A stretch of 64,000 nucleotides of DNA, taken from the NCBI GenBank assembly GCA_918797485.1, contig CAKKNE010000004.1:4340001-4404000 (forward strand), in the 5' to 3' direction. Under the pieces are notes generated by a model. The model was not told the origin of the DNA. It saw nothing but the letters and a program-made list of their open reading frames with translations, and did not search any database. The position numbers were made by a program, and so were the translations under genes. Below are positions 11,944-30,831 of the stretch, in pieces. The DNA comes from Pelagomonas calceolata (lineage: Eukaryota; Sar; Pelagophyceae; Pelagomonadales; Pelagomonadaceae). Positions within the stretch are counted from its first letter, which is position 1. Every line of letters begins with the position of its first letter.

Positions 11944-14859
11944 CTAATCGGGCGCGGAAGAAGACTCCCCTCGGATCGGGATGAGGCGGCCGGCAGCGGC
12001 GGCTTCCGCGAGCCGGACCGCCTGGGCTAAGGAGATTCCGAGCACCATCTTGGCCTCGTCTGCGGATGCGACGGGCGGCGTACCGGGCGCGGCGGCGGCC
12101 GAGACAAGGCGCTCGAGGTGCAATGGAGCCGCGGGTCTCCGTTCACCGTCTGACAATTGGCCACAGTGGCGCTTGAAATTCCTCATGAGTTCGCTACAAT
12201 CGATACCCAATGGCCACCGTGCTTCAGGGCAGAGGGCGCACCTCACATGATTTCCAGAGACCTCGAACTGTCGCCGCTCCGTGCCGTCCGCACACGTATA
12301 GCAGTTCCTGAAGTCGTTACCGCCGTGGCTAAATCGAATCACGCCGTCGATGCGAGCTTGTACGTAGTCCTTCCGCGAGATTGGGCGAGTGCAGCGCGCT
12401 GCCTCCTCGTCCGTGAGCGTCGCTCGCGCGAGCTGAGGGGATCTTATTAGCACTATGGAGCCGCTCGTCGTCGCAACTTCCTTCCAGGACTGCCGGCAAT
12501 CGACAATAACTCCGCGGACCGTAGCATCATCAACAACCTCTACCTGAGCGCCGACGCCAAACTGGCCGGACCGCGTCGCTCCGCCAACCAAAGCAGGCGC
12601 CTCAGCCATCAGCTCCGTTGTTTCGCCCTCGCAACCGTCGCCGTCGGACGCATCACTATCACTACCGCCGTCTTCGTCGCTCATAGTACTCGCCACGACG
12701 CGCTGTCCTTTCTTGCAGTTCGGACACGGCACTCGCACGCCGCGCCGCGTCGCGACGTTGTGCGGCCGCTCAGCGCATTCCCGCGCCCAGCCTTCGATGC
12801 ACTCGCGATGGAACACGTGCGAGCAGACGTCCGAGCCATATACCGCATCGGCTTCGGCCACGACGGAGAAGCAGATCGTGCACGGTTCGTTGGGGTCCCG
12901 CCGGCGGCGCACCGGCGGCGGGTGCGTGCTTCCAGCTTCCAAGAGCTCGGCCCGCTCTCGCAACCGTAGCACACATGCCTGTTTGCCCTTTCCCGAGCCG
13001 CCAAATTTGGGTTTGTCGAGACAATTTCGACATTTTCCACACATGGGTGTTTCGTAGCGGAACGTGAGCCGACCGCTGGTACCCTTCGATTCCCGGTAGT
13101 CCGGCGCCTCGGTGCGCACGGGGCGCGGCGCCAATTCGTTATCGCTGGAGTCTGGATCGCGATAGTCCGGCGCTGTTCCCTCGGTGCGCGCGCGGCGGCG
13201 CGGCGGCGGCGCGGATTCGTCATCGCTAGAGTCCACGCGTGCGCGGCGCCGCGGCGCAGCAGCGACGAGGCCCTTGCGCACCGCCCAGACCCAGAGGTCG
13301 TCCTTGTCGAGGAAGATGCTTTCCCCTATCTTGCCCGCGTCCCGGGAACGTAGTTGAAACACACCAGAAGTGGCCTGGGGCTCGACGATGTCTGGGGCGC
13401 ACCACATCCAGGTACGCGGGTCGCCCGGGGCAATATACCCCGGCTTCGTCAATACCTTCCAGCCCTTCGCCGTGAGCTGCGCCCACAGTCCACCAAAGTC
13501 CTTCTCCGACACGACCTCCGCCGACCCATGGCCGCGCCGCGGCCGCGATGTCCTCTCCGAAGTCTCGGCGCTGGCCGGCGCTGCGCGCTTTCGCGGCGGA
13601 GGCGCGTCATCGGACTCTTCGTCAGCAGCGCCACCAGGATCCGCCACGGGTGCGTCAAGGAACTGCGCGACGGCGTCGCGAGCCCGCAACCTCAAGGTCT
13701 TCTTTTGCTGGTGGCTAGGATTCACCACGCCGCAGAGTTCGTAGAAGCGCGAGTATACCGAGCCTGCCGCGCCGCCTTGTTGTCTGCTCGCCTCGCCCGC
13801 CGCAATCAGGCGCTCGACCCGTAAAAACTCCCTCTCGTGCGGCGCGAGACGGCGTTCCTCAGACTCCTCGCCGTCGGACTCCTCGTCAGCAGCATCCGCC
13901 ACGGGCGCGCCAAGGAAGGGATCAATAATCAGGCGGGTTCGTTCTCGCAACGACTTCTTTTGCTCCTTATCAGGATTCACCGCGCCGCAGAGCTCGTAGA
14001 AATGCCGATATATACCGCCGTCCATCGAACTCTTGTGGCTCGCCTTTCCCGCCAGTCTCAAGCGCTCAACCCGCAAAAACTCTTGCTCGTGTGGCGCGAG
14101 ACCGCGCTCGTCGAGGAGCTCCCACCTCCTCTCCGCGAGGTCCTCGTCCCACAGGGAACCGTCCGTGTATGTGATCTCGTAGAGCCGGCTCCCGTCGAAC
14201 GCGTTGACAGATCCAGAGAACCAGGCTCGATCGTGGGGCCACCAAATGCGGATGCGGGACCCGACTAGCGCGTCGCCGCGCGGCGCACCCGCGGGCCAGA
14301 CGTATTGCTCGTCGTCGCTCTCGTCGGCGTCCGCCGGAGCCGGAGCCGGCGCCGCGACAGAGTCCTCGTCGGCCGGCTCCCCAGCGTCGCTCTCGTCTTC
14401 GTCCGCCGGAGCAGGCGCCGCGACACAATTCTCGTCGGCGTCAGGAGCGGAGCGCTTCGCCGGCGTGACTCGCGAAGACGCAGACAGGAGGTAGCCGTCC
14501 GGCGACCGCCGGAACGCGGCGAGACTCGCGTGGTTCTCGACGATCGTGTCGCGGAGCAAGTCGCTGAAGCCTACCAATGCAGCCAAATCGGCCGCGGACC
14601 AGCTGCACTCGCGCGGCGGTGATAGTCTGGCATCGATCGTCTGCTCGACCTCGAGAACGTCCTCTACGGAATCCAATTCATCGAGTAACGCGCCGTCGAC
14701 GGAGAATGCGCAGGCAGATCCAATGATGCCCTGCCTGCGCGCGCGTGCCAAGACCTCGGTCTGCAACTCGCCGACGGTCGTCTCCGGCGCCGCGGGCACG
14801 AGCAGGACGAGCTCTTGGTCGCCCAGCAGGACGCGGATTCTATATTTTAGCTTCGCCAT
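11944..14859 (-). CDS. Multi-domain chromatin-type protein: Tudor-like, CXXC half-finger, RING, novel Cys/His domain
   Basis: 971 residues, one exon, ATG at 14857-14859. In order: a ubiquitin-like N-terminus (1-50); acidic linkers; a Tudor/Agenet-like barrel (about 195-245, GSRIRIWWPHDRAWFSGSV); two tandem ~85-residue repeats starting LAPHE(Q/R)EFLRVERL with FYELCG(A/V)VNP cores; a LWAQLTAKGWKV domain of the kind common in stramenopile nuclear proteins; a CXXC-type zinc-finger half (CGKCRNCLDKPKFGG); a RING (CTICF..CSHVFHREC..CPNC); and a C-terminal domain (769-918) repeated in the gene at 28-31 kb. The parts suggest a nuclear E3 ligase or chromatin reader that recognises DNA or histones; this is inference. 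The CXXC domain lacks the usual first cysteine half. Confidence 0.75.
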   Translation of the reverse strand: MAKLKYRIRVLLGDQELVLLVPAAPETTVGELQTEVLARARRQGIIGSACAFSVDGALLDELDSVEDVLEVEQTIDARLSPPRECSWSAADLAALVGFSDLLRDTIVENHASLAAFRRSPDGYLLSASSRVTPAKRSAPDADENCVAAPAPADEDESDAGEPADEDSVAAPAPAPADADESDDEQYVWPAGAPRGDALVGSRIRIWWPHDRAWFSGSVNAFDGSRLYEITYTDGSLWDEDLAERRWELLDERGLAPHEQEFLRVERLRLAGKASHKSSMDGGIYRHFYELCGAVNPDKEQKKSLRERTRLIIDPFLGAPVADAADEESDGEESEERRLAPHEREFLRVERLIAAGEASRQQGGAAGSVYSRFYELCGVVNPSHQQKKTLRLRARDAVAQFLDAPVADPGGAADEESDDAPPPRKRAAPASAETSERTSRPRRGHGSAEVVSEKDFGGLWAQLTAKGWKVLTKPGYIAPGDPRTWMWCAPDIVEPQATSGVFQLRSRDAGKIGESIFLDKDDLWVWAVRKGLVAAAPRRRARVDSSDDESAPPPRRRARTEGTAPDYRDPDSSDNELAPRPVRTEAPDYRESKGTSGRLTFRYETPMCGKCRNCLDKPKFGGSGKGKQACVLRLRERAELLEAGSTHPPPVRRRRDPNEPCTICFSVVAEADAVYGSDVCSHVFHRECIEGWARECAERPHNVATRRGVRVPCPNCKKGQRVVASTMSDEDGGSDSDASDGDGCEGETTELMAEAPALVGGATRSGQFGVGAQVEVVDDATVRGVIVDCRQSWKEVATTSGSIVLIRSPQLARATLTDEEAARCTRPISRKDYVQARIDGVIRFSHGGNDFRNCYTCADGTERRQFEVSGNHVRCALCPEARWPLGIDCSELMRNFKRHCGQLSDGERRPAAPLHLERLVSAAAAPGTPPVASADEAKMVLGISLAQAVRLAEAAAAGRLIPIRGESSSAPD
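12106..12555 (-). other. Novel Cys/His domain, copy 1 (coding)
   Basis: Core DDATVRGVI.., DYVQARIDGVIRFSHGG, CADGTERRQF, HVRCALCP, then HCGQ and LHLERL. Shared with two copies at about 28987-30280. It is followed by a second shared unit (MVLGISLAQAVRLA). Confidence 0.7.
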
Positions 14860-15370
14860 GCTGTGTCAACACGTGTCCCGTTTGTCTTCGTCTGTGCGAT
14901 TGCGGCCAGAGGCTGGCCCAGGCTGCCTGGCTGCCGGCTCTGTGCTGTGGGGCTGGTCGTTTGCAGCCCGCGCGGATCAATGGCTGCTGTAGCGCGTAAT
15001 CGTGCGACACCAAGCGTCGGAAAGCTGCCCGAGTGCCGCGTCCGCGCCAAAAAGCACGGAGTGCAGAGGATGGTCTCCAAAGCTAGTAGCCAGTGTCGGG
15101 TTTCCGAATCGCAAGATTCGCAGGAAACCAGGGCTCCTACCGGCTCGCGCACGAATACAAACACACAGGACGCCCTCCGGCCCTCCGGCCCAAACACACA
15201 GGAAGACGACGGGGAGTCGAGCAGACGCGCGCGCCGTAATATTTGCGGGACGGCGCTGCAGCGGCCGGCGGCGAACGCGACGACGGCGTCGCCTTAGAAA
15301 CGTTGCGCGAGCGGTCTTTGCGAAGGGGCAGCCGCTACTCCTTAGGCGCATTCCCTCTGGTCGCGCGACC
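14860..15370. promoter_or_regulatory. Divergent promoter region, about 510 bp
   Basis: This separates the chromatin-type gene (minus) from a Rab (plus). A direct repeat AAACACACAGGA flanks a CCCTCCGGCCCTCCGGCC block (about 15158-15202). No clear TATA box or motif A was seen. Confidence 0.35.
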
Positions 15371-16051
15371 ATGGCGGCGGCGCGGCCTTTTGATTTGCAG
15401 ATCAAGCTGCTGATGATCGGCGACAGCGCCGTCGGCAAGACCTCGCTGCTGCTGCGCTACGCGAACGACACGTTCAGTTCGACGTTCATCACGACGATCG
15501 GCATCGATTTCAAGATCAAGACCGTGGATCTGGACGGGCGGCGGGTGAAGCTGCAGATCTGGGACACGGCGGGCCAGGAGCAGTTCCGGACCATCACGCG
15601 GTCCTATTTTCGGGGCGCGCAGGGCATCGTGCTCGTCTACGACATCACGGACCGGGGGACGTTTAATTCGGTAAGGAGCTGGATGGCGCAGATCGCGGAC
15701 CACGCGGACGCGCAAGTCAATCGGGTGCTCGTGGCGAACAAGAGCGACAACGAGGCCGAGCGGCGCGTCTCGAGCGCGGAGGGCGCCGCGCTCGCGGCCG
15801 AGTACGAGGTCAAGTTCCTGGAGACGTCCGCGGCCGCGTGGGAATTTGTTCGTCGCTCGGGGTCGGCTCGACGGCGTGACTGACGGTGGCCACACAGGTC
15901 CGCGAAGCACGACATCAACGTGTCGGAGACGTTCACGGCTATTGCTCGGGAAGTCGTCGCGAGGATTCCGGCCGAGGGCGCGGCGTCGACGCGAGGCGCG
16001 ACACGGCTCTCGGGGACGAGCGGCAAAAAGAAGTCGTCCTGCTGCGGCTAG
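15371..16051 (+). CDS. Rab-family small GTPase (Rab8/Rab1-like)
   Basis: Two exons, 15371-15825 and 15898-16051, about 202 residues. All G motifs are present: GDSAVGKTS (P-loop), TTIGIDFK (switch I), WDTAGQE (switch II), NKSD and ETSAKH. The C-terminus SSCCG is a geranylgeranylation site. This membrane-bound switch acts in secretory vesicle traffic; [20 protein letters not shown] is closest to Rab8/Rab10/Rab1 proteins. The ATG is chosen because the family N-terminus ([12 protein letters not shown]) follows within eight residues. The frame continues open upstream but without a matching N-terminus. A paralogue lies at 36.7-37.3 kb with its intron elsewhere. Confidence 0.92.
15826..15897 (+). 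mobile_element. Introner-like element with clear target-site duplication in the Rab gene
   Basis: A 72-bp intron. The donor side starts GTCCGCG and exon 2 also starts GTCCGCG immediately after the CACACAG acceptor, a 7-bp duplication. It contains GGCTCGACGGCGTGACTGACGG. The host duplication supplies GT while the element supplies AG. Removing it gives ETSAKH, the conserved Rab G5 motif. Confidence 0.85.
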
Positions 16052-16114
16052 AACTAGCGAGGGGCGGACTCTGCCGCCGCCCGTATATAATTTTCTCGAC
16101 AAAACTTAGTAGTC

Positions 16115-17700
16115 CTAGGTGCCCCGCGCGAAGGGCACGTTGGGGAACGCCGAGTCTTCATCCAACGAAGTCGCGTTCGTCGCCTGGACCCGGGACCGGT
16201 CCAGGACGAGCAGCTGGCGCTGGTCCTTGCCGCCCGACTGCGGCATCAAAGGCGTCACACTTAACCCGCGCTCCACGAGCAGCTGGACGATGTCCTGGTC
16301 GTGCGTCCGCTCCGAGACAAATAGGCACTTGACCAGACCCTTGACCAGCAAATGCTGCAATAAATCCGCGGTCCTGGGCGTCGTGCAGTAGATAAATAAA
16401 TAAGAAATGACCAAGATGTCGATGGGACCCTGGCAGGCTTGCACCACATCTCTAGGTGTTATTTTTGACACGTCAAAGGGTGCGACGAAATGACACCCTA
16501 ACGCTTCGGCGTAGGGCCGCCAGCCCGGCTGCAGGTCTAGCGAGTAGAACGCGAACTCTACACTGTCGTTTTTCGCTCTGCAGAACTCGCGGACCGCGTC
16601 GAGCTCGAACGCGGGGCCGCCGCCCAGCGACGCGCATCTCAACCGAGACGAGGTGCAGAGAAGTTGTTGAACGCCGGCGTCGGCGTCGCAGGCCCGCGCA
16701 CACAGGTTGTACGTCTCCGTGAAGCGCTGCCTGCGTTGCGAGTGCGTCCGGCTAAGCGGCGTTGCCATCGATGCTCTCGCTCCGCTCTACGCCGTCGACG
16801 CGACGACGCTCCCATTTCTAAGTACGTCGCGGCGACGGCGTACGGACAGCGCCCACCTCACGCCATCGAGGCGACGGAAACGGACGCTGTGTAATGCAGT
16901 GATTTCAATTTGAGATACTGCGTCTGCAACCCCACGTGGGCGTACTCGCCGTCGGACCAGGTCACGTTCTTGCCTTCGGCCTCGGAGCCGAACTTGCGTA
17001 AGGACGGCTTCTCGCCGTAGATGCGCCGACCTTCCTCGACAATTGCGGCGGCCTTCGGACCGAGCTTCTTCAGTTCCTCCTCGTTCTTTTTCAGGACCAG
17101 AGCCGTCCTAGCTAGCAAGCCACTCAACAACAGCAGCCCTTTTTCTCCACAAAAGAACTCGTACCGTCGTCGCGCGTCCTGGAAGAAGACTGCGCCACCT
17201 TTATCATCCCTAAACACCATGGCTTCGCTATGGTCGCGCCGCGCCGTCTTCTTGTTCCAGAGCGGCAATTGTGCAGAGAAGGCTTTCCTCGCATTGTCAT
17301 CGACGACGTCAAATGAAGGAAAGGCCCCGAAGCCCACGTCGCTCTCGTCGTCCCGCGGTCTCTTCTGCGAAGCATTCTCGTCGAAGAAGCAGGCGATCTC
17401 CAGGGTCTCGGAAGGCAGGAGCGCGACGACCATACTATCCAACTGTGCTATGGCCGCCTTCTTCCGCCCTCGGAGAAACCCGACAAATTTAGAAACGCCC
17501 TCCTTCGTCTCCTGGAGCGACGCTTTTCGTGCGGCCCAGGCCGGGTGCTTCGGGTCTTGCGTGCCGTCTAGCACGGTCGGCTCGCGCGTGTAGTCCGTAA
17601 AGACTAGGGAAGGTGGTAACGGTGCCGTTTCACATGAGACCGTTCCCACATATTCCGTGCCCTTGTCGTTCCTCACGAAGATCTCCGTGCCCTCGGCCAT
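16115..17700 (-). CDS. Unidentified protein with Rossmann methyltransferase-like C-terminal half
   Basis: Best single-gene model: exon 1 16886-17700 (ATG at 17698-17700), intron 16731-16885, exon 2 16115-16730, about 476 residues. The N-terminal half (MAEGTEIFVRNDKGTEYVG, later LLLLSGLLARTALVLKKNEE) is unrecognised. The C-terminal half has a SAM-binding-like CASLGGGPAFELDAVREF loop, an acidic strand end (FYSLDLQPGW) and IDILVISYLF, as in class I methyltransferases. The join is supported by a GTCCGT donor, introner cores inside the intron, matching phase and the lack of promoter space. The alternative is two genes: 16858-17700, and 16115-16768 starting MATPLSRTHS. Confidence 0.5.
16731..16885 (-). 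mobile_element. Probable introner-like intron with two inverted-repeat cores
   Basis: It contains, on the plus strand, GCCATCGATGC (16768), TACGCCGTCGACGCGACG (16788), GCGGCGACGGCGTACGG (16823) and CACGCCATCGAGGCG (16859): two head-to-head pairs, as if two elements are nested or in tandem. Donor GTCCGT, acceptor AACGCAG. Its status as an intron depends on the single-gene model. Confidence 0.5.
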
Positions 17701-18177
17701 CGTCTCGCTGCTTGGTGCTCTCTGTTGTGTTGTGCGTGGCGGCGTCTGCGACGGCGTCTGCTTGCGCAGCGATGCGTGCGTATTACGGTGTGTCAGCGAT
17801 GATAATTCAGCGTGCACAGAAGTAACCGCACAGCAGCAGGGCCGTGCCGCAGCTGCTTTGCCTCCCAGCATAGCATGCTAGTGCCTCACAGGACGCTAGC
17901 AGCGAGCCCGGCCGGAGGCCTCACCGCAGGTTTCTTGCGCCTTATCATGCATAGCCGGGAAGGATGGAAGGTAAAAAGAGGTGGGCTTTTTTTCCAGCCA
18001 ACTCGATAGGCTGGCGTGTTTTTTGACTGCCGAAACAGACGTCTCTCCGGACTATTTTGCAACACGGTAACTTGTCGCAGCAGCTGCATCGACTGCTTTC
18101 GACGTACCGCAAAACGCTGCTCTCGACGCCGTAGCAGCGCCGCACACAGCATTGCCAACAACAGGGGGGCTACAACA
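17701..18177. promoter_or_regulatory. Divergent promoter region of the 17.7 kb gene and PGR5
   Basis: It carries motif A copy 2 (17876-17901), 176 bp from the minus-strand start and 277 bp from the PGR5 start. No coding frame was recognised. Confidence 0.5.
17876..17901 (+). promoter_or_regulatory. Palindromic upstream motif A, copy 2
   Basis: TGCTAGTGCCTCACAGGACG followed by CTAGCA; the ends TGCTAG/CTAGCA are inverted. Confidence 0.6.
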
Positions 18178-18516
18178 ATGCTCAGGTGGCTCGTCGTCTC
18201 ACTTCTTGCTGGCGCGAGCGCTTTCGCACCGGCGCGGACCGCGCCCTTGCAAGCACAAAGGAGGCAGCGGCCACAGGTCGCCCAGACCATCCGCATGGCC
18301 TCGATGGCCAAGTTCGGCGTCTTCTCGCCGGCGGTCTACGCGGGCCGCATCATCTTGGGAGACAAGCGTCTCGAGAAGGTGAGGGGCCAGGGCATTTCGT
18401 TGCACTCCCAGGCGATCACGGAGTTCTGCGTTTTTGTCGGGGCGACGCCGAAGATGCGCGGCCTGCTCATCAAAAAAGCCAAAACGAACGGCGACACGCT
18501 GGGCTTCTTGGTCTGA
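18178..18516 (+). CDS. PGR5: PGR5, thylakoid cyclic electron flow regulator
   Basis: 112 residues, single exon. The mature part, KRLEKVRGQGISLHSQAITE followed by FCVFVGATPK and a LIKKAKTNGDTLGFL end, is the conserved PGR5 core. PGR5 is needed for ferredoxin-dependent cyclic electron flow around photosystem I and for building the proton gradient that protects PSI. The N-terminus MLRWLVVSLLAGASAFAPAR is a bipartite presequence: a signal peptide ending in ASAFAP, the motif recognised at complex plastids of diatoms and their relatives, then a short transit peptide. Length and start fit the family. The promoter is shared with a minus-strand gene and carries motif A. Confidence 0.93.
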   Translation: MLRWLVVSLLAGASAFAPARTAPLQAQRRQRPQVAQTIRMASMAKFGVFSPAVYAGRIILGDKRLEKVRGQGISLHSQAITEFCVFVGATPKMRGLLIKKAKTNGDTLGFLV

Positions 18517-18601
18517 GAGGCGTTGGCGCGTCTCAGACGCACTTCTGTGTATAAATTTAAATAATTCGGAACTGAGGAGTAGTAGAACAACAGTGATTAC
18601 T

Positions 18602-19666
18602 TCAGGGTAGCCGCGTCAGGACCACGTCCTTCACCACATCCCGCCCGCGGCCCTTGCGGAGCGACCTGATGAGGGCGGTCTGCTTGGACTTGTTGTCGCC
18701 CGTCATCGTGCCTACCCAAACGTCGGCGTTCGCGCAAATCAGCAGATCCACCAAGTACGCCGAGAGAGAATCGGACGGTATCGCGTGCCGCTCCAGATGG
18801 GCGCGGTCGGCCAGGCGGAAGCCCCGCTTCGAGACCTCGTTCAAAGTCGCGGGCGACCGGTCGTCCGTCGCGACGATTACGGACCGGCCCCGCGCGATCA
18901 GTGAGACTCTATCTAAAACAGCCGGCACGGTCAACCCGTACTTCTCCATCGTGTGCTTCTTGTCGCCTCTCCGTAAATGCAAAGCCACGTAGCTGGACCC
19001 AACTAAATCCGCCGCGACGTTCAGAGCGCCCGCTTCATAGATATCGGAGAGCACGACGGACGCCCTTAATAATTTCCAGGCGTCGCCGTCCTTCAACTGG
19101 ACGCCGGGCGTGAAGCCCGCCGAGTAAATACAAAGAGCGCACTCGCGCGGCCACCGAACTTCCCCGTAGTACGCGGCGCAGCGCGGCCGCCTTGTCCGTA
19201 GCACCTTTTCACGGTCGCACCAGGCGTAGTCCCAACCTCTAGCGCACCTTACATGTGGCGGGGGTGTCATCGCGCACGACACGCACTTCGCGCTCCGAGG
19301 CATTTTACGATACACATCATCAAAATGCGCGAATCGTACGGGAGCGTGCGCGAGCGTGGCGCTGATATTTATGTAGGCATCAATTCTTTGGGTTGGCGGC
19401 AGGCGCCGTAACGCCACGTCTCGTCGGTAGTGCGGCCCCGTAAAAAGTAAAGGCATGAGCACGGCGGTCCTTTTTAACCGTCTTGCCAAAGTTAATACAG
19501 ACAGCAAACTGTTGAGCTGCAGCGCGAAGCCCTCCTGCGTCGGGACGGCCCAGACGTACTTTTCTTCTTGACCGGCGGCGCACACGTCTTCATTGGGCTG
19601 CTTGGGGTCCGCGGGCTCCTGCCACTCCGCCTCTCTCTCTGTTCCGTCGGCGTCGAGCCAGCGCAT
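18602..19666 (-). CDS. GDP-fucose protein O-fucosyltransferase-like glycosyltransferase
   Basis: About 354 residues from the first ATG at 19664-19666; the open frame reaches 19696 only through a TTG. SSYVALHLRRGDKKH is the HxRRGD-type donor-binding motif of the O-fucosyltransferase/GT65-GT68-like superfamily. LLICANADVWVGTMTGDNKS near the end is the matching C-terminal loop (S/T-x-SN..). Four Cys in the middle may form disulfides, which suits a Golgi or ER lumen enzyme. No signal anchor is seen at this start, so an upstream exon may be missing. The acceptor substrate is unknown. Confidence 0.68.
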   Translation of the reverse strand: MRWLDADGTEREAEWQEPADPKQPNEDVCAAGQEEKYVWAVPTQEGFALQLNSLLSVLTLARRLKRTAVLMPLLFTGPHYRRDVALRRLPPTQRIDAYINISATLAHAPVRFAHFDDVYRKMPRSAKCVSCAMTPPPHVRCARGWDYAWCDREKVLRTRRPRCAAYYGEVRWPRECALCIYSAGFTPGVQLKDGDAWKLLRASVVLSDIYEAGALNVAADLVGSSYVALHLRRGDKKHTMEKYGLTVPAVLDRVSLIARGRSVIVATDDRSPATLNEVSKRGFRLADRAHLERHAIPSDSLSAYLVDLLICANADVWVGTMTGDNKSKQTALIRSLRKGRGRDVVKDVVLTRLP

Positions 19667-19920
19667 CGCTCGGCGCTGCGGTGCAGTAGGTAGCAAGCGG
19701 TGGTTTGGAACAGGGCAGCGCTTCCCGCACGCCAGTCGCTCGGCGGCGATCGCTTATCGCTCCGTCGGCGGCATCCCCATCATTTGCTGCGCCCAGCGAC
19801 TACGCCGTCGGCGTGCCAGCATTTTGTATTTTGGCAGCAGAGCACACAGCCAGGCAGAGGAGGGCTGCCTCCGCCGTGGACACCTAGCTGCTGCCCCACC
19901 GGCCGCGATCGGATACACGG

Positions 19921-20646
19921 ATGGAACCAATATATACAAAACATGTGACCACGCTGCCCGACCAGGGCGGCGAGGGCACGTCGCGGCTCCTGCGGCACCT
20001 CGACCCGGCGGCGCCCGCGCCCGACGCCCTCGACGCGAGCGAGATCCCGAGCGTGGAGCAGGTGACGGCCTGCCTCGACGACCTGGAAGTGTTGGTTGCG
20101 CGGGAGACGCGGGCGAACCACCGATTGCGAAAGGAGGCGGCGGCGCGCGGCGAACGTATTAGAAGCGGTCTGGCGCGCTTCGGAGAGGACGTTGGCGAGG
20201 AAGTGGCTGCGGCGCGCGTTCCGATCGGCGAGGCATCAAAGGCCTTCGCCGACCACAAACTCGCGGAGGCCGGCGACAATACACTCGCCGGCGAGGATAA
20301 GCTGTTGACCAAAGCCCACCATCGGCTCGAACGACGGCAGTCCCTCCAGACCACCATCGAGGGCATCGTGTCCTGCGCGAAGACCGAGGCGTTGTTACCA
20401 AAAAAGAACGGCAACGGCTGGGCCCTCGCGGTCAAGGACGCCGAGGCCTGGGGCCGCGCGGCGTTGGTGGCGGAGCCCGTGCCCGACGTGGCGGCGATGG
20501 CGCGCGAGAAGCGGAAGGAGCGGCGGCGGAGTAAGGGCGACGCGAAGAGCGACGCGAAACGGGCAGCAGCAATAAAGAAAAAAGATGCCACCAAAAAGCA
20601 CGAGGAGTGGGTCGAATCGAGGCGGGGCCGGTTGGATAAGAAGTAG
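19921..20646 (+). CDS. Unidentified coiled-coil protein
   Basis: 241 residues from ATG at 19921. It is almost wholly helical: DLEVLVARETRANHRLRKEA and later KLLTKAHHRLERRQSLQTTI are heptad-like. The tail is very basic (REKRKERRRSKGDAKSDAKR), possibly a nuclear localisation or RNA-binding segment. No family was recognised. A degenerate introner core (CTACGCCGTCGGCG, 19799) lies upstream. The stop is followed directly by a T-run and the GCTAGGCCGCCTAGCC-type palindrome. Confidence 0.6.
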   Translation: MEPIYTKHVTTLPDQGGEGTSRLLRHLDPAAPAPDALDASEIPSVEQVTACLDDLEVLVARETRANHRLRKEAAARGERIRSGLARFGEDVGEEVAAARVPIGEASKAFADHKLAEAGDNTLAGEDKLLTKAHHRLERRQSLQTTIEGIVSCAKTEALLPKKNGNGWALAVKDAEAWGRAALVAEPVPDVAAMAREKRKERRRSKGDAKSDAKRAAAIKKKDATKKHEEWVESRRGRLDKK

Positions 20647-20906
20647 ATTGTTTTTTTTTTTGCCCTGCTTTGCTTAGAGCTAGGCTACCTAGCCACCAGC
20701 CCTACTACGGCACGGGGGGCGCGTCTCGTCTCGTCTGCAGCGGCGCAGCGCTCCAACTTGCGAGCGTCGCGGCGATGGCGCGCGGGAGGAGACGTATCTC
20801 CCAACAAAGGTCGAGGGATCGTACGCCATCGATGCGAACGAGTGCCCTCACGCGACAAACGTCAGTCACACACTTGTTACCCACGCGCCAGGAAGGGAGA
20901 GACCAC
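20647..20906. other. Convergent spacer with palindrome B and an intergenic introner copy
   Basis: Palindrome B copy 2 (GCTTTGCTTAGAGCTAGGCT.., 20663-20694) follows an 11-T run. Inverted arms GCGGCGATGGCGCG (20770) and GTACGCCATCGATGCG (20820) mark an introner-like element outside any gene. Confidence 0.6.
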
Positions 20907-22620: not shown

Positions 22621-25600
22621 CTAGAGCAGCTTCTCCGCCGTCAGCGCCGCGCCGTCCGCGTTCGCCTCGTCGATGCCGCCGGCCGACGCGAAGCAGGCAG
22701 CAGTCGCATCTAAAGCAGCCAACCTATCACCGAACCGCTGGAAATCACTAGGCGACGCATTCAAGACTTGCGACCGCCACTTCTTCCGCTGTTCCAGAGT
22801 CGTGCCTTGTAAATAATGTCTCAAGGACGCCATGCCCTTCTGGTCCGGACCCAAGGGAGAATCTAAATCCCCGATGGCCGCCACGATGGCCTTCGTCAGC
22901 TCCGCGTCGTCGACTTTGAGGTCCTTCAAATACGTCGCAGCGCCATCATACGTATCAAGCGTCTTTTTCAAATTAGGATCTCTGTACGAAGAGAAGACGA
23001 AGGACCCCGAGATCGGGTTCGAGGAGGCCGACGAGCCATACGCGCCGCCCTGCACCCTAACTTGATTCCAGAGGTAGTCGAGCGACAGGAAGCGTCGCAC
23101 CACAGAGTCGGCACCCGACGTCGTCTCACCAGGCTTATATAAAGAGCCGCCCTTGGCCACGTAGTTCACTTGCGTCGGCACGGAGAATGCCTCGTTCGGC
23201 TTTACGGCGACGAGCGAAGATAGCGAGGACCAGTCCGGGACGTCCGAGGATGTTCCTTGACCGAATAACTGGGCGCAGAAGCTTCCGAGCTGTGCAGAGG
23301 CCGCGTCCAGGGCCTTCTTGTCTCCGGTCAAATTGACCACGGTCGCGGACGACGCCCGCTGCAGGATCTTCGAGCGCATGGCCTCTAAACGTGACAGTAG
23401 AGCAGGCCAGTCGTTCTGCGCCGTGTCGAGGAGCTCGAGCACCTTAAAGTAGTGGCTGACACCGCCCGTCGCCTCGTTCACCAATCCCGCGGAGTTCAGG
23501 CCGGCAGAGATCCGTAGGGAAGCGTAGGCCTGGCCCGACGTCCTGAATGCGGACTCATATCTAGCTTTCGACTCCTTGAGCATCTCCACAACCCGAGTTT
23601 GGGAATAGCCGAAGTCTGCGTTTGTAAGAATATCACCCATCAGCGAGAATAAATCCGAGGCGCGTTCATGCGTCGCCTTGCCCCTCAGGATGTATCGGTA
23701 CACGATATCGTCCGGCTGGGCCACGGTGCCGTCCTCCGGCACTCTCAGCGTGCACAACACGCTCCCGCCGACGCCGCCGGTCTTCGCGCCGAGCTGCCTC
23801 TGTAGTTGTGTGGGATCGAGCTTACCCTTAATACCCGTCTCCTGCATCATCCGACCAAATAGCGGTACGAGCGGTAAGTCCTCCGGGTCCAATGCACCTC
23901 TCAAATCCAGCGCAACATCAGCGTAGATGATACCGGCCGTAGGCAATTCTCTGGTGAGTAACACCGTATTGTCATAGCCAGCGACCGTAGACTCGTCGCG
24001 AGGCAAGGTTTGCGGCTCAGACGATAGATCCTTCAATCCTAGGGAAGGGATCGTCGCCAGTGCCTCCGGAGAGTCGGGCGTCGACTGGATCTCCTTGAGG
24101 CGCGCCGCCTTCTTTGCTACGGCGTCGAGCTGGTCCGGAGACATCTCGTCGCGCAGCGCCGCGAGTCGCGACGCCTCCTCCTGCTTCTGCGACTCCTCGA
24201 GGCCCTCGTCGGGCGTCATCTCGATGGTCACGCGGTGCGTGTTGTCCACGAGCAATGTCTTCAGTAAACGCGCGAAGTAGGCGTTCGCATCTACAGACAG
24301 CTCCTTTTTCAAATCAGCAAGAGGCTGCTCGAAGCGCAGCGCGTCCACCGGATCCCTTTCATAAATCCAGTTCCGCATCATGCCGAGCATGAAGGATAGA
24401 CCTTTGGGGAACGAGCCCGTGTTGAACTCCCTCAGACTAAACTCGATCGTGTTGAGCGAGGCCTCCAAGTCGTCGGCCGCGAAGCCCTCGGACGCTAAGG
24501 TCGATAGAGTGTCTACAACTAACGCTTCGACCTTCGGGACGTCGTCCTTGGCCACGCCCTTCAATCCTACGGAATACGTCGGCTGGACCAACTCATCAGA
24601 CAACCCACCACCGACGACGCTCTCACCCAATCCGCTATCAGTTAAGGCCTTCCGTAAGCGACTGGTAGAGGTGCCCAGCAACAAATGGTCCAGGACGGCC
24701 AACCCGAGTTCGTCCTTCGGCGACGGTGGGGTCTCCGTCAGCAGCCAGTTCACGGACACCATGTGCTGGCCGCCCTCCTCGTCGTCACTGGACGACGCGG
24801 GGAAGCCCAATTTCACGTGCTTCGGCTCCTTGATGGTTAGTTTCTGCGTTTTGATCTGCGTGGAAATGTCGCGCTCCGAGAACTCTGATAGGTACTCCTC
24901 CAACAGATCCAAGCGCGCCGCGGGATCGTCGTCCCCGTAAAAATACACGCGAGCGTTCCCGGGGTGGTAGAACTCGCCGTGGAAGTCACGGAATTGATCG
25001 AAACCTAGTTGCGGGATCGCCGCGGGGTCGCCTCCCGAATCCACAGCATAAGCGTTGTCCGGGAACAGGGCCTGCTGCGAGGCCCGAGCCATCAACGAGT
25101 CCGGCGAGCTATAAACTCCTTTCATCTCGTTGTACACGACTCCACTGTATGTTAATTTGTCTCCCTCAAGTTCGTAGTGCCAGCCCTCCTGTTCGAGGAC
25201 CGTCGGGTCTTGCGCCGCTCGAGGGTGGAAGACCGCATCTAAATACACTCTCGCTAAATTCCGGAAGTCCTCCAAGTTCTGGGAAGCGACGGGGTAGCAC
25301 GTCCTATCCGGATACGTAAAGGCGTTTAAGAAGGTCTGCAGACTACCTTTGAGCAGTTCGACGAAGGGTTCTTTGGTGGGGTACTGCCTCGAACCACACA
25401 GCACGGAATGCTCCAAGATATGAGGTAAACCCGTACTGTCGCGGGGCGGCGTGCGAAATGTCACGCCGAAGACCTTGTTGTCGTCGTCGGGCTTGATGAC
25501 GGACAAAACTTGGGCCTTGGACTTCTTGTGCTCGTAGAGGTGGCAGGTCGCGCCGTACTCGTCGAGCGTCTCCGTCTTTAGTAAGGTGAAGGCCTCGTGT

Positions 25601-25890
25601 TGGGGCGCTTCGGTCGATGAAGGCGGTGTGAGCGTCGAGGTCATTTTTTGTGCTTTGAACCCCCATCTAGGGCGTCTCAAAGTGCGCCAGCCTCGTAACG
25701 CTTCTCTCCCAGTAGCTAGGAAGGTGCCACCGAGCAGCGCGACGGGCGCGGCGCGTTTGGTGGTGAGCGCGATGCTCGACATCCTCGACGTCTGGCGGGA
25801 CATGACGGGCCGCGCGCCGGTCACGCGCAAGCCACCTCGTGCTAAGAGGGACATCTTGAGCAGGAAGGCTGACCCTAGGAGCCAGCGCAT
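22621..25890 (-). CDS. PREP: Presequence protease PreP (M16C zinc metalloprotease)
   Basis: 1089 residues, one exon. The inverted zinc motif HILEH (LPHILEHSVLCGSRQYPTKE) and the distal Glu in YNEMKGVYSSPDS identify the active M16 half. The total length and the weakly similar second half match PreP/PITRM1/falcilysin, which forms a clamshell that degrades cleaved targeting peptides inside mitochondria and plastids. The first ~100 residues, basic and Ser/Thr/Ala-rich, are a likely organelle targeting peptide. The gene diverges from APC7 across about 460 bp. Confidence 0.93.
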   Translation of the reverse strand: MRWLLGSAFLLKMSLLARGGLRVTGARPVMSRQTSRMSSIALTTKRAAPVALLGGTFLATGREALRGWRTLRRPRWGFKAQKMTSTLTPPSSTEAPQHEAFTLLKTETLDEYGATCHLYEHKKSKAQVLSVIKPDDDNKVFGVTFRTPPRDSTGLPHILEHSVLCGSRQYPTKEPFVELLKGSLQTFLNAFTYPDRTCYPVASQNLEDFRNLARVYLDAVFHPRAAQDPTVLEQEGWHYELEGDKLTYSGVVYNEMKGVYSSPDSLMARASQQALFPDNAYAVDSGGDPAAIPQLGFDQFRDFHGEFYHPGNARVYFYGDDDPAARLDLLEEYLSEFSERDISTQIKTQKLTIKEPKHVKLGFPASSSDDEEGGQHMVSVNWLLTETPPSPKDELGLAVLDHLLLGTSTSRLRKALTDSGLGESVVGGGLSDELVQPTYSVGLKGVAKDDVPKVEALVVDTLSTLASEGFAADDLEASLNTIEFSLREFNTGSFPKGLSFMLGMMRNWIYERDPVDALRFEQPLADLKKELSVDANAYFARLLKTLLVDNTHRVTIEMTPDEGLEESQKQEEASRLAALRDEMSPDQLDAVAKKAARLKEIQSTPDSPEALATIPSLGLKDLSSEPQTLPRDESTVAGYDNTVLLTRELPTAGIIYADVALDLRGALDPEDLPLVPLFGRMMQETGIKGKLDPTQLQRQLGAKTGGVGGSVLCTLRVPEDGTVAQPDDIVYRYILRGKATHERASDLFSLMGDILTNADFGYSQTRVVEMLKESKARYESAFRTSGQAYASLRISAGLNSAGLVNEATGGVSHYFKVLELLDTAQNDWPALLSRLEAMRSKILQRASSATVVNLTGDKKALDAASAQLGSFCAQLFGQGTSSDVPDWSSLSSLVAVKPNEAFSVPTQVNYVAKGGSLYKPGETTSGADSVVRRFLSLDYLWNQVRVQGGAYGSSASSNPISGSFVFSSYRDPNLKKTLDTYDGAATYLKDLKVDDAELTKAIVAAIGDLDSPLGPDQKGMASLRHYLQGTTLEQRKKWRSQVLNASPSDFQRFGDRLAALDATAACFASAGGIDEANADGAALTAEKLL

Positions 25891-26351
25891 TTGTTCCTTG
25901 CTTTGCTGCTGCGCGACGGCGTTGCCTCGCGCTGCGTGCAGCTCTTGTGAGCTGTTAGAGCTGTCTCTTGAGCAACTCCTGTGCAGGTATAATGCACCAG
26001 CGCGTCGACGAACACGCGGGCAAAACAGAGGCTGTGCCAGCCTGGTAGTTGAGCGGGTCGTCTCCGCGACCGATGGTCGTCGAAGACATTTGTGGAGGCC
26101 TCATTCCACGCGAATCTAAGAGAAATACCGGCTAAACATCTAGCGTCATACAAGCTCTAGCGTTTCAAGCCCGGGCGCAAAAACTAGCAAGACGCCGCCG
26201 CTGCGGGCTCAGCACAGCAGCAGGCTAGCGGAACGTGGTCTCCATTTGTGCTGCGAGCACCGCTTCCAGCGATTTGGCTGCGGTAGCGCATAAATCAGCC
26301 AATAGACACCTGGGCACTACACCGGTTTCGCACCGCCAGCGGCGCGCAGCG
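25891..26351. promoter_or_regulatory. Divergent promoter region of PreP and APC7
   Basis: About 460 bp. A weak motif-A-like pair (AAAACTAGCAAGACG at 26179 and GGCTAGCGG at 26222) is spaced wider than in other copies. Nothing else is recognised. Confidence 0.3.
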
Positions 26352-28028
26352 ATGGCCGAAGCGTCAACGGACGAGCTCCTCGCCGACCTCAAACGCTTAA
26401 TTGACGACGGCCTCTTCGCGTCCGCCGAAATCCTCGGATCGTTGCTGTTAGCCAGGTGCGACACCGAAGCTCACCCCGCGCGCGAACGGGGCGACGCCTT
26501 GAGCCTCTACGCCGACGCCCTGTTCGGCAAGGGCGAGCACAAGCGCGCGAGGTCCTACTACCGGAGAGCTATCGAGCGAAGACGCGGCGCCGGCCCATGG
26601 CAAGGAGACGGGGATGGCGCGAGAGCGAGGGACGAGGCCGAAGCGCGCCTACGACTGAGGGAGGCCGAGTGCGGCGTCGTGCTGGATGAACACGCCGCGG
26701 CGATTGGGTCGATCGAAGCTGTTCCTGTGGAATTGCGACCCGCGAAAGCTAGAGCGTTACTCGGCAAGCTCTACTTACAGTCAGGCCTCAAAAGGAACGC
26801 CATTACGGCCTTCGAGAGCGCCCTCGACAAGGACCCACTATGCCTGGAAGTCGTCGAACCGCTGCAACGCCTCAAGGCCTCGCAGCAGGACTTCGAGGAA
26901 GACGACGCGATGGATTCTACGAACGAAAAGTACCCTTGGTTAACAGCCTTTGCCGAGGCCCACCAAGCCCTGGCCCAGCACGACCCGACGCGCGCCGCGA
27001 ACGCCTGGAGCGACGTTGAACAGAGGGGCGACTTCCACGGGAACTTGTATGGGCTGTGTAGGAGGGCGGTGGCTCGCGCGGAGGCGGGGGATGATGCGGA
27101 AGCTAGGGTGGCGTTTGCGCGAGCTAGAGCTGCCGACCCGTTGAATGTCGATAGCATGGACCACTGCGCTTTGCTACTAAAGAGGCGAAACGCCGAGGAC
27201 GAGCTCACGGCTCTGGCGAGGGATTTAGTCGCGACCGACCGGAAGCGCCCGGAGGCCTGGTTGGCCGTTGCTGCGAAGTTCGACTGCGCCGGCGACCGGG
27301 ACGCTGCTCTCCAGTTCGTGGACAAGGCTATAGCTTTAGATGCGAGGCACGCTCTCGCTTTCAGGTTACGAGGGGAGCTCCTATTAGCGCAAGGCAAGGC
27401 CGAGCACTCGATCGTGGCCTACTTCCAAGCAAATAATGTGGCGAAGGACCTGGCTTCTTATAGAGGACTAGTGCTGGCATACCTGTCGACGCGAAAGTAT
27501 AAGGAGGCCCTTTGCACGGCGAAGGAGGCCGTCGCGACATTACCGAGAAATGCGAAAGCGATAGCGCTGGTCGGTAGAGTGTTGGCTACCTCTCCAGAAG
27601 GTGCGGACAAGGCGCGACGGGCCTTCCAGAAGGCCTTGCAGCTCGACGCGTCTTGCGCTGATGCGGCCCTCGCCTTAGCTGACTTGCATGCCCAACGAGG
27701 GGAGTGCGACGCCGCTGCTGAGTTACTCACGAGGGCCTTGTCGGAGAACGAGCAGGATACGTTGCATAGCAAGTTAGGCGACGTCTACGTCATCGCGGGC
27801 GAGGAGCGCTACCCGGAAGCCCTCGCGAGCTACCACGCCGCCCTCTCCCTGAACCCGGCGTCGGACGCCGCGCTCACGGGACTGGACCGGCTGGAAAAGC
27901 TCATGGCCGGCGTCGACCCGGACCTGAGCGACGAGCACGACTCCTGTGATGATGAGGAAGCACCGGACACGGCCAACTCGGCGCACGACGTCGAGGAGGA
28001 CGCGCTCGAGAGCGCGGCGTACCTCTAG
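26352..28028 (+). CDS. APC7: APC7-like TPR subunit of the anaphase-promoting complex
   Basis: 558 residues, ATG at 26352. It is tandem TPR helices throughout. The stretch VAKDLASYRGLVLAYLSTRK followed by YKEALCTAKEAVATLPRNAK matches the conserved APC7 block (LSSYRGLVEAYLS..K.KEAL..A..A). APC7 is a structural TPR subunit of the APC/C ubiquitin ligase that drives mitotic exit in the nucleus and cytosol. The acidic C-terminus (DPDLSDEHDSCDDEEAPD) is also typical. Only 25 bp separate its stop from the stop of the convergent gene. The related subunits APC3, 6 and 8 are less likely but not excluded. Confidence 0.8.
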   Translation: MAEASTDELLADLKRLIDDGLFASAEILGSLLLARCDTEAHPARERGDALSLYADALFGKGEHKRARSYYRRAIERRRGAGPWQGDGDGARARDEAEARLRLREAECGVVLDEHAAAIGSIEAVPVELRPAKARALLGKLYLQSGLKRNAITAFESALDKDPLCLEVVEPLQRLKASQQDFEEDDAMDSTNEKYPWLTAFAEAHQALAQHDPTRAANAWSDVEQRGDFHGNLYGLCRRAVARAEAGDDAEARVAFARARAADPLNVDSMDHCALLLKRRNAEDELTALARDLVATDRKRPEAWLAVAAKFDCAGDRDAALQFVDKAIALDARHALAFRLRGELLLAQGKAEHSIVAYFQANNVAKDLASYRGLVLAYLSTRKYKEALCTAKEAVATLPRNAKAIALVGRVLATSPEGADKARRAFQKALQLDASCADAALALADLHAQRGECDAAAELLTRALSENEQDTLHSKLGDVYVIAGEERYPEALASYHAALSLNPASDAALTGLDRLEKLMAGVDPDLSDEHDSCDDEEAPDTANSAHDVEEDALESAAYL

Positions 28029-28053
28029 GTTCGTAAACATACAGGTTATTCTT

Positions 28054-30831
28054 CTAGAGTGACGAACACGCGTCCATAAATCGCCGCCGCTCCGGCTCGG
28101 ACCATTGCGATAATTCTAGAGCGTCGTCGAGGTCGTCGATGTCGCAGCATCGAAGGTCCGCGAGCGAGTCGGCCACGTCTCGCAATCGCGCGTGCCGGGC
28201 GACAGGCACGTGTTGCGCCATCCACGCCTCGAATTCTTCCGCGGCGTCGACCCACGCGCCTCGGCGAGTGTCCCAGGTGCGATTCGGAGGGGCGGGGCCG
28301 GGCGGCTCCGGTACATACTGCCCGCCGACGGACTCGACCGAGCACTCCGAGGACGACGACGAGTAGCCGTCGTCACCTGGCGGCGTCGGCGGGTCCGTGC
28401 CGTCCTCCGAGTCCTCCCGCGTCAGGTCGATGCACTGCGGCGCGGCGCGCGGCGCCGGCGGTCGAGGGGGCGGCGGCGCAGCGGCGGTGACCGCCTCACT
28501 ATCGGCGGGAGCACGAGGTGGCGGCGGGAGCGATGGCCGCGGAGACGCCGAGTCGTTCTCAGAGGACTGATCCCACCGCGCCCAGGGCGCTTCTGTCCGC
28601 GGCCTTTTCGCTTCCGGATCCATCGCCTCTTCGCGCTCGCGCCGCACGTCCGCGCCCCCCCACAAGCAAACCGGCGCGCCGATCTCCTCCGCCAACCGCC
28701 TGTTCCGCTCCTTGGCCGTGGCATCATCGACGTCGTCGTCGTCCGTCTTGGTTTCGACGATGGCGTCGGGTGGCCTAGCGCGACCCGAGCGCCTAGCTAC
28801 ACTCCGGGGTACGGGAGGATTCAGGCGGCTCGACCGCTTGCCCGCCGCGCACGACTTGGCGTGCTGCACCGCCGCCGGCGCGTGCTGGAACGTTCGCGGG
28901 CAGCCCGCAGGACACGGGAAGCAGCCCCGTGCGTCGCGCGGGAGGAGCCGGTGCGCCTGGGCACGAGAGACTCCCAGCACAATCCCGGCCGCGGCCGAGG
29001 CGAGGCGCTCGCGGTGCAATCGAGCCGCAGTGATTCTTGAGGTTTGTCCGCAGTGATTCTTGAGGTTTTCCAAAAGCATCAAAATATCGGTCTCCAAAGA
29101 CCATGACCACCCATCAGGGCAGAGGGCGCACCGAACATGAGTCGCAGTCACCACGAACTGGCGCCGCTCCGTGCCGTCCGCACACGTGAAGCGGTTCTTG
29201 AATTCTCGGCCGCCGCGGCTGAAGCGTATTATGCCGTCGATTCGCGCTTGCACGTAGTCCTTCTGCGAGGCCGGGCGGACGCACAGCGCGGCTTCCTCCT
29301 CCGTCAGTGTCGCTTCCGTCAATTGTCGGGGGTTAAGCATCACCACGGCGCCGGTCGTCGTCGTCACTTCCCTCCAGCCCTTAGGACAATCGATAATCAC
29401 TCCGCGCACCGTCGAATCATCGATTTGTGCTACCTGTGCGCCGACGATGCACCAGTCACCAGTTACAGGGTACGGCTTGTTGACGTAGGTCTCGCCGGCG
29501 GCGCGGGCCTTGAGCTTGTCGATAAAGTCCGCCTTGCGGTCCTGCGGGCCGCGGCCCACGCCGCGCCGCGCCATGAGCTTTCTCAGCTGCGTCCCGGTCA
29601 TGGCCTCAAGCGCGGCGTCGGAGGGGAGCCGCTGCGTCGTCCGCATTGCCCTCCAGAATGGAGACTCGACGGCACTCAAAGCTTGAGAGGTATCTCGGAC
29701 GATGAGGCAGCCGGCCGCGGCAGCTGTCGCAAGCTGGCGCGCCTGGGCATGCGAGATGCCCAGCACCGTTCCGGCCTCGTCGGTGGTTGCGACGGGCGGC
29801 GCGGCCGCGGCCGAGGCGAGGCGCTCGCGGTGCAATTGAGCCGAGGGCCTCTGACCTGACGTTTGTCCGCAGTGATTCTTGAGGTTTCCCAAAAGCACCA
29901 AAATATCGGTCTCCAAAGACCATGACCACCCATCAGGGCAGAGGGCGCACCGAACATGAGTCGCCGTCACCACAAACTGCCGCCGCTCCGTGCCGTCCGC
30001 ACACGTGAAGCGGTTCTTGAATTCGCGGCCGCCGTGGCTGAACCGTACCAAGCCGTCGATCCGTGCTTGAACGTAGTCCTTGTGCGAGGCCGGGCGGACG
30101 CATCGCGCGGTCTCCTCGTCCGTCAGCGTCGTTCGCGTCAACTTTGAGGGTCGTATCATCACCACGGAGCCGGTCGTCGTCGCAACTTCCCTCCAGCCCG
30201 TAGTGTAGCCAGTGATGACGCCGCGGACCGTCGCATCGTCGGAATCCTCTACATGTGTTCCGACGACGCACCAGTCGCCGGTCACAGCAGCGGCACGCAG
30301 CGGTGGCGGTGCCGCAGCGACAACGGCGCTCGTGGGCTGCTGGCGCCGCCGTTTCAGCGCGGGGGCGGCCGCCGCCGGGAGACTAACGGCCGCCGCAGGG
30401 GCCCGCCTCCGGACAAGCTTCTCGCCCGACCTGCTCACGGCACGAATCCTATTTTGGTAGTAGCCGTCGGCCCACGCAATCTCGTAGTAGACTTCTAGTT
30501 CGACAACAACTTCAGCGACGACGCCGGGATACCATTTCCCCTCCCACAGCGCCTCGACCTCGGCACCCACTGCGAACTCCGCGACTGGCGGCGGCGCGAC
30601 GCGGACGCGCTTGCGCGTTCGGGGCCCCTCAGGCACAATAATTGTGGCGTCCGGCTGCTGCTCGCGCCGCCGTTTCAGCGCCGCGGCGACCGCCTCCGGG
30701 AGGCTAGCCGGTGCTTCGTTCGTGGGGTTGCCGACGCGGCGGCGCGTGGGGCAGGCGGCTGCTGGGGCGACCGCCTCCTGCTCATCCAAGAGGACGTCGA
30801 GCTGCGCGAGGGCGACCTCGGCCGGGTTCAT
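28054..30831 (-). CDS. Chromatin-type protein with two copies of the novel Cys/His domain
   Basis: About 925 residues from the first ATG (30829-30831); the frame extends 10 codons upstream only via a TTG. In order: a Tudor/Agenet-like domain (about 85-140, VEALWEGKWYPGVVAEV); novel domain copy 1 (nt ~29817-30280); a SAP-like helix pair (GTQLRKLMARRGVGRGPQDR); novel domain copy 2 (nt ~28987-29460); one C2H2-like finger (CPAGCPRTFQHAPAAVQHAK); and a Pro/acidic C-terminus with a helical end. Nuclear, probably DNA- or chromatin-binding (inference). The two domain copies are nearly identical over ~120 bp of DNA, so the duplication is recent or homogenised. Neighbour 31.1-35.0 kb shares the SAP-like, Tudor-like and C2H2-like modules, suggesting origin by local duplication. 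Confidence 0.72.
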   Translation of the reverse strand: MNPAEVALAQLDVLLDEQEAVAPAAACPTRRRVGNPTNEAPASLPEAVAAALKRRREQQPDATIIVPEGPRTRKRVRVAPPPVAEFAVGAEVEALWEGKWYPGVVAEVVVELEVYYEIAWADGYYQNRIRAVSRSGEKLVRRRAPAAAVSLPAAAAPALKRRRQQPTSAVVAAAPPPLRAAAVTGDWCVVGTHVEDSDDATVRGVITGYTTGWREVATTTGSVVMIRPSKLTRTTLTDEETARCVRPASHKDYVQARIDGLVRFSHGGREFKNRFTCADGTERRQFVVTATHVRCALCPDGWSWSLETDILVLLGNLKNHCGQTSGQRPSAQLHRERLASAAAAPPVATTDEAGTVLGISHAQARQLATAAAAGCLIVRDTSQALSAVESPFWRAMRTTQRLPSDAALEAMTGTQLRKLMARRGVGRGPQDRKADFIDKLKARAAGETYVNKPYPVTGDWCIVGAQVAQIDDSTVRGVIIDCPKGWREVTTTTGAVVMLNPRQLTEATLTEEEAALCVRPASQKDYVQARIDGIIRFSRGGREFKNRFTCADGTERRQFVVTATHVRCALCPDGWSWSLETDILMLLENLKNHCGQTSRITAARLHRERLASAAAGIVLGVSRAQAHRLLPRDARGCFPCPAGCPRTFQHAPAAVQHAKSCAAGKRSSRLNPPVPRSVARRSGRARPPDAIVETKTDDDDVDDATAKERNRRLAEEIGAPVCLWGGADVRREREEAMDPEAKRPRTEAPWARWDQSSENDSASPRPSLPPPPRAPADSEAVTAAAPPPPRPPAPRAAPQCIDLTREDSEDGTDPPTPPGDDGYSSSSSECSVESVGGQYVPEPPGPAPPNRTWDTRRGAWVDAAEEFEAWMAQHVPVARHARLRDVADSLADLRCCDIDDLDDALELSQWSEPERRRFMDACSSL
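28987..29460 (-). other. Novel Cys/His domain, copy 3 (coding)
   Basis: DDSTVRGVIIDC, DYVQARIDGIIRFSRGG, CADGTERRQF, HVRCALCP and NHCGQT mark the domain. The 3' part differs from copy 2 because of a 23-bp tandem duplication. Confidence 0.7.
29027..29071. repeat. 23-bp tandem duplication inside coding sequence
   Basis: GCAGTGATTCTTGAGGTTTG plus TCC occurs twice in a row. Because 23 is not a multiple of three, the minus-strand protein reads the copies in different frames: LKNHCGQT then SRITAA. Confidence 0.8.
29817..30280 (-). other. Novel Cys/His domain, copy 2 (coding)
   Basis: DDATVRGVITGY, DYVQARIDGLVRFSHGG, CADGTERRQF, HVRCALCP, NHCGQT and LHRERLA. It is followed by GTVLGISHAQARQLA, which is also shared with the 11.9-14.9 kb gene. 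Confidence 0.7.

Follow-up and report, generated by a model that had tools for sequence, protein, structure and literature searches.

A putative zinc-holding module in candidate chromatin proteins of the pelagophyte Pelagomonas calceolata

Zinc fingers of the C2H2 and BED types share a pattern in which a CxxC pair on a hairpin leads into a helix that closes with L-x2-H, with BED fingers defined by C-x2-C ... H-x3-5-[H/C]. A full CXXC finger, one of the CpG readers, comprises two zinc clusters and eight Cys. Here we describe a ~155-residue module found in three copies in two open frames, P0001 and P0002, of a 64,000-nucleotide stretch of Pelagomonas calceolata DNA (contig CAKKNE010000004.1, positions 4,340,001 to 4,404,000; hereafter the window, with positions counted from its first letter). 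The first part of the module is closest to SH3 barrels of the Spt5/NusG KOW and Tudor types. Its second part, the core, has the ligand order of BED and C2H2 fingers but differs from them in several respects set out below, and the CpG readers CXXC and MBD are found beside the module in P0001 and in a frame elsewhere in the genome (L021) rather than being the module itself. We put the probability that this is a zinc-held chromatin-docking module of nuclear proteins at roughly 0.55, on computed grounds: the size of the family, its invariant C2H2 set, the predicted fold, the separability of the core, purifying selection and partner domains.

Copies in the window and in the genome

An earlier note on this DNA, the original prediction, had reported a Cys/His-rich domain three times in two proteins. 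All three copies are present where it placed them, on the minus strand of P0001 and P0002, as are its motifs DDATVRGVI/DDSTVRGVI, CADGTERRQF, HVRCALCP, HCGQ and LH.ERL. It gave a VLGIS unit to two copies; VLGIS or VLGVS in fact follows all three, the third being shortened. The features are as follows.

11944..14865, minus strand: P0001 open frame, 973 amino acids (aa), with a half-CXXC finger, a RING finger and one module copy near its end; first Met at 14859
12409..12561, minus strand: copy 1 barrel part, KOW/Tudor-like, assigned via alignment to modelled copy 2
12097..12408, minus strand: copy 1 zinc core, with CxxC at P0001 aa 876/879, H900 and H916
12022..12045, minus strand: VLGIS unit 3' of copy 1, in P0001
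28054..30894, minus strand: P0002 open frame, 946 aa, with two module copies; first Met at 30831
30121..30276, minus strand: copy 2 barrel part, KOW/Tudor-like, from predicted strands and structure matches to Spt5 KOW
29812..30120, minus strand: copy 2 zinc core, proposed ligands C114, C117, H139 and H153 in model numbering (P0002 aa 316, 319, 341 and 355)
29743..29766, minus strand: VLGIS unit 3' of copy 2, a predicted helix (model residues 180-191) behind a low-confidence linker
29302..29457, minus strand: copy 3 barrel part, KOW/Tudor-like, in P0002
28996..29301, minus strand: copy 3 zinc core, ~180 bp of it nearly identical in DNA to copy 2
28957..28980, minus strand: partial VLGVS unit 3' of copy 3, in P0002

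The module thus occupies aa ~769-923 of P0001 and aa ~207-361 (copy 2) and ~480-633 (copy 3) of P0002. Pairwise protein identities between the copies are 75, 61 and 60% over 179-199 codons, and a genome search with copy 2 recovered both remaining copies (E 5.3e-85 and 2.4e-71), which excludes chance likeness. P0001 is transcribed, since MMETSP holds a near-identical protein of 971 aa marked complete (P0006), with one difference in 971 residues when P0001 is counted from its first Met; its coding part appears to be free of introns.

The genome searched comprises 32,445,274 bases in 8 contigs. The published assembly is described as six nuclear contigs of 32.4 Mb together with a plastid and a mitochondrial contig, at 63.6% G+C (PMC9481584). 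In the window, G+C per 2-kb block is 58-72%. Copy 2 matched 15 places in the genome, 14 of them at E ≤7.6e-16 and one at 1e-10. This search, followed by divergent queries and then by a profile of 27 copies applied to the frames retrieved, brought the family to 18 copies in 13 open frames, so that three copies in two proteins holds for the window but not for the genome. Four copies are found in L021, two each in P0002 and L020, and one each in P0001, L016, L017, L018, L022, L023, L024, L025, L026 and L027. L017 has its barrel and core in two overlapping frames, suggesting an intron, and an insertion breaks the L018 match into two pieces. Two weaker places, C1:5389698 (L019, with no profile match) and C6:216165, were left out of the count. 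In one genome copy (L015/L027), and in its relatives from metagenomes, the barrel is missing and the core stands by itself, which marks the core as a separate unit.

Protein searches beyond the genome listed at least 73 rows (11, 59 and 3), all containing the module by profile and together holding 79 domains; as these searches rely on shared 5-residue words and two of them covered about 8000 candidates, the row totals are lower bounds. Among the rows are the window's own P0002 (as P0003) and the transcript form of P0001 (P0006). The best match of each domain to the genome frames has 49.7-100% identity over the aligned part, which in some cases is short (44 residues in P0075). The two copies in P0005 reach 56 and 50%, suggesting that more than one species or genotype lies behind the relatives. 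Scans of viral contigs and prokaryotic genome contigs, in which 29, 203 and 128 stretches matched peptide patterns, yielded no relative; with one pattern per scan, this is weak evidence of absence. Among eukaryotic genomes the searches covered this one, so that confinement of the module to one lineage is no more than a possibility. Domains restricted to single lineages are fairly common in general.

A tree built from 29 selected rows separates L016, P0074 and L017 from all others with support (98/97), though their branches are long. The 2560-aa frame at L021:943-8622 (on C3 of the genome) has an MBD match and four module copies, two of which group with the L024 copy in the same tree.

Judged from their coding sequences, the copies are under loosely held purifying selection, with ratios of non-synonymous to synonymous change of 0.29-0.55 in ten paralogous pairs chosen from 91 possible. 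At the DNA level, copies 2 and 3 agree at 95-98% of positions in five overlapping 60-base windows within the core and at 65-85% in the remaining nine; unbroken matches extend for 66 and 44 bases. That a core patch of ~180 bp is so much more alike than the remainder points to gene conversion between these tandem copies.

Predicted fold and zinc site

AlphaFold2 (AF2) models the whole module as two parts, with a mean confidence (pLDDT) of 89.0 and a predicted template modelling score (pTM) of 0.75; the core modelled alone gives 83.8 and 0.74. In agreement with the small beta barrel originally proposed ahead of the zinc part, the first ~55 residues of copy 2 form strands at 12-15, 22-29, 32-37, 42-45 and 50-52, and Foldseek and VIA rows identify an SH3-like fold resembling Spt5 KOW and also the Tudor domains of PHF1, PHF19 and SETDB1. 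No Pfam profile for a KOW or Tudor barrel matches the module over its cut-off. For the core alone, Foldseek and VIA lists against the PDB contain no match (best Foldseek E 0.86), a result that does not by itself establish a new fold. Small, predicted to fold alone and without a match in these PDB lists, the core is a good target for structure determination.

Conservation was counted over 94 aligned instances, taking only those with a residue at the place in question; many are close relatives and so not independent. In the numbering of modelled copy 2, four positions are fixed or nearly so: C114 (87/87), C117 (86/86), H139 (80/80) and H153 (77/78). The original prediction had instead proposed an invariant C..H..CxxC..HC set of the C2HC/BED kind. 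Its first Cys, C63, is retained in 64 of 77 instances, and the Cys beside the His in HCGQ, C140, in 70 of 81, being otherwise S, L or T. Since the CCHH set is fixed while C63 and C140 vary, the predicted zinc-type site stands but as C2H2 and not C2HC, and the module very probably binds zinc. All 18 genome copies keep this set, with spacing CxxC-x(18-35)-H-x(5-15)-H. Across the alignment, 76 instances are complete, with C-to-H gaps of 9-35 and H-to-H gaps of 5-18; of the other 18, 17 are gapped at a ligand place and one has Ala. Two residues outside the proposed ligand set, D78 (90/90) and N92 (91/91), are also invariant.

The BED assignment fared no better than C2HC. The core shares with BED and C2H2 fingers the ligand order C-x2-C ... 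H ... H and a first His, in the context L-x2-H, with which a helix closes. Unlike them, however, it has an extra helix and a multi-stranded sheet ahead of the CxxC, carries its second His on a helix of its own in the modelled copy, and has no Pfam match. In 74 of the 76 complete instances the second His is 8-18 residues from the first, outside the BED spacing, with which H-x5-H in the remaining two would agree. The BED profile gave no match at a threshold of E 10 when one copy was scanned, and BED is not among the 18 families listed at E 5 for 25 members, a negative to be read knowing that HMMER filters drop weak matches.

No family in Pfam, NCBIfam or PHROGs exceeds its curated cut-off in the module. 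The original prediction, which had recognised no named domain and would have been overturned by a sensitive profile search placing the module in a known family, was not overturned by these searches. PDB sequence searches gave no match, the best (E 0.18) being to the zinc part of ribosomal eS27. Several candidates were considered and set aside. DUF7066 reached E 1.4e-4 in L021 over 18 residues (22.2 bits against a cut-off of 27), and among 25 members its best E was 0.083, in three of them; zf-LSD1 (E 0.0010, 19.4 bits against 20.2) covers 9-12 residues around the CxxC; NPCBM_assoc (E 0.0028) appears in one of the 25 members, below its cut-off or over a short stretch; and the best PHROGs match has E 0.026. 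A literature search found no title or opening abstract lines describing the module, most subscription journals being outside its coverage, and the main text of PMC9481584 contains neither 'zinc finger' nor 'methylation'. The module is undescribed, though its one-zinc C2H2 ligand type is familiar and its barrel common.

Compared as a whole with the predicted viral structures of BFVD, the module gave giant-virus SprT-like proteins as four of the top five Foldseek rows (E 1.1e-3 to 2.4e-3), none of which reaches E 0.001. With root mean square deviations of 8.9-13.3 A over 120-121 columns, 6-15% identity and template modelling scores of 0.21-0.24, these are a weak lead that could hint at a common zinc part.

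Partner domains and the case for chromatin docking

The original prediction pointed to chromatin from the company the module keeps. In the window that company comprises three stretches.

12964..13047, minus strand: half CXXC finger in P0001, CGKCRNCLDKPKFGGSGKGKQAC (PF02008, E 2.3e-7, 31.2 bits, profile positions 18-46 of 48)
12712..12882, minus strand: RING finger in P0001 (PF17123, 27.4 bits against a cut-off of 27; PF13639, 26.7 against 27.3)
30454..30573, minus strand: Tudor-like stretch in P0002 (PF18359, E 0.0017, 18.6 bits, below the cut-off of 31)

The CXXC match is over its cut-off but covers the second half of the profile only: the KFGG stretch is retained and the first Cys cluster is unmatched, so that P0001 lacks the paired zinc clusters of a full finger, while near full-length matches (such as profile 4-48) are present elsewhere in the genome. 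The Tudor-like partner falls short of its Pfam cut-off, and the SAP-like one proposed with it reaches only E 0.23, in the neighbouring frame.

Beyond the window the predicted chromatin company is borne out more broadly. Matches over the Pfam cut-off comprise CXXC and RING_11 in P0001, a bromodomain in L016 (2.8e-15), an HMG box in the upstream frame of L017 (3.6e-9), UBA in L025, Myb, SGF29-Tudor and Tudor_3 in L024, Myb and C2H2 in L026, RING_2 in L027, and MBD in L021 (1.9e-5), 80 aa before a module copy. Below cut-off are PHD (L016 and L027), RING (L026), AP2 and Tudor types (L021), Tudor_2 (L027) and Tudor_5 (P0002); L018, L022 and L023 have no partner that counts. The scan of L026 covered 2331 of its 2795 aa. 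Because the 2032-aa L020 frame may join genes, its RRM, FHA, CSD and WD40 matches were not counted; the MBD of L021 and Myb of L026 were, despite the same possibility in long frames. The L016 arrangement recurs among the relatives: a bromodomain is found in P0073 and P0074 (90% over the query region), and P0075, more distant, has PHD and bromodomain over cut-off with a module tail (75% over 44 residues).

The genome has 74 matches over cut-off to four of these families (8 CXXC, 7 MBD, 31 bromodomain and 28 HMG). At least one occurs in 4 of the 13 family frames against 0.06 expected (16,667 genes), giving P 2.5e-7, which rises to 1.5e-4 once a fivefold correction for gene length is made. Adding Myb (118 genome matches) raises this to 6 of 13 (P 3.5e-9; fivefold 4.3e-5). 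Excluding the very long frames L020, L021 and L026 leaves 3 of 10 for the four families (P 9.9e-6; fivefold 0.0012), which Myb raises to 4 of 10 (P 3.4e-6; fivefold 0.0017); dropping L017 too leaves 2 of 9 for the four families (P 6.9e-4; fivefold 0.016). These values are a guide only, as the families were picked after the partners had been seen and some genome matches may be absent from the counts. Three places in the genome match C5-cytosine methylases over cut-off, which agrees with the use of CpG readers. A nuclear, chromatin-associated role for the module is probable.

On the reading that we prefer, a KOW/Tudor-like barrel would be followed by a ~105-residue alpha/beta core holding one zinc through its C2H2 set. 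Through this core the module would attach to some component of chromatin, most likely the surface of a protein, for instance a histone or chromatin factor, and not DNA by plain charge. It would thereby recruit to chromatin the proteins that have bromodomain, HMG, MBD, half-CXXC, Myb, Tudor or RING parts. Docking by the core is favoured by low charge, by the lack of an aromatic barrel column and by the strict conservation within the core; that the ligand is a protein rather than DNA we regard as an even chance. Rather doubtful is the bolder idea that the core is a new zinc-held fold from the pelagophyte lineage, repeatedly recruited as its own chromatin-recognition module and possibly reading a mark or nucleosome feature to which known domains do not respond.

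The chief rival, which is less likely, is a sequence-specific DNA-binding domain in which the helix of the C2H2 core would enter the major groove as in BED and C2H2 fingers, with the barrel steadying it. The hairpin-helix pattern of the core, the two instances with H-x5-H (the upper end of the BED spacing), conserved R22, R76, R103, R113 and Q104, and DNA-binding partners (Myb, HMG, MBD and CXXC over cut-off, AP2 below) would all suit it. However, the barrel and core have a median net charge of +1 and a pI of 7.9 (25 sequences), so that the module is no basic DNA clamp. The distant second His, in a second helix of the modelled copy, also speaks against it, as does, weakly, the lack of any PDB zinc finger among the core's structure matches.

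It is improbable that the barrel itself reads methyl-lysine or methyl-arginine with the core in support. Its likeness to Tudor domains as well as KOW would fit, but no barrel column is aromatic in ≥60% of 25 rows, so that a methyl-lysine cage is not evident; moreover, the invariant residues lie in the core and one subfamily has no barrel. A part in ubiquitin signalling, nuclear or elsewhere, for example in substrate recognition for RING proteins, seems similarly unlikely: RING is over cut-off in P0001, L027 and P0005 (below in L026) and UBA in L025 and its relatives, but 9 of the 13 family frames have neither in Pfam scans, and the bromodomain, HMG, MBD and Myb partners would go unexplained. 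An origin in a transposase, as its DNA-binding end, followed by dispersal through duplication alongside mobile elements, would suit the BED-like ligand order, the many dispersed and fast-diverging copies and the tandem gene conversion. It is improbable, however, given purifying selection between paralogues, the lack of viral or prokaryotic relatives in the pattern scans and the absence, at E 0.05, of any transposase family from the Pfam scans of this genome's family frames.

The link of the module to MBD, CXXC and bromodomain proteins offers a route into chromatin control in pelagophytes, which to our knowledge has been little studied.

Other parts of P0001 and P0002 and the adjoining frame

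The start of P0001 (window 14626-14859, MAKLKYRIRVLLGDQELVLLVPAAPETTVGELQ...) looks ubiquitin-like by eye, with no Pfam match there. Adjoining P0002, a minus-strand frame of 1288 aa (window 31122-34988) matches Myb (5.4e-13) and, below threshold, AP2, has Agenet/Tudor stretches besides, and is not among the matches of the module searches of the genome. P0002 and this frame have in common a short unit, CPAGC-xTF-xHAPAA, that appears finger-like by eye.

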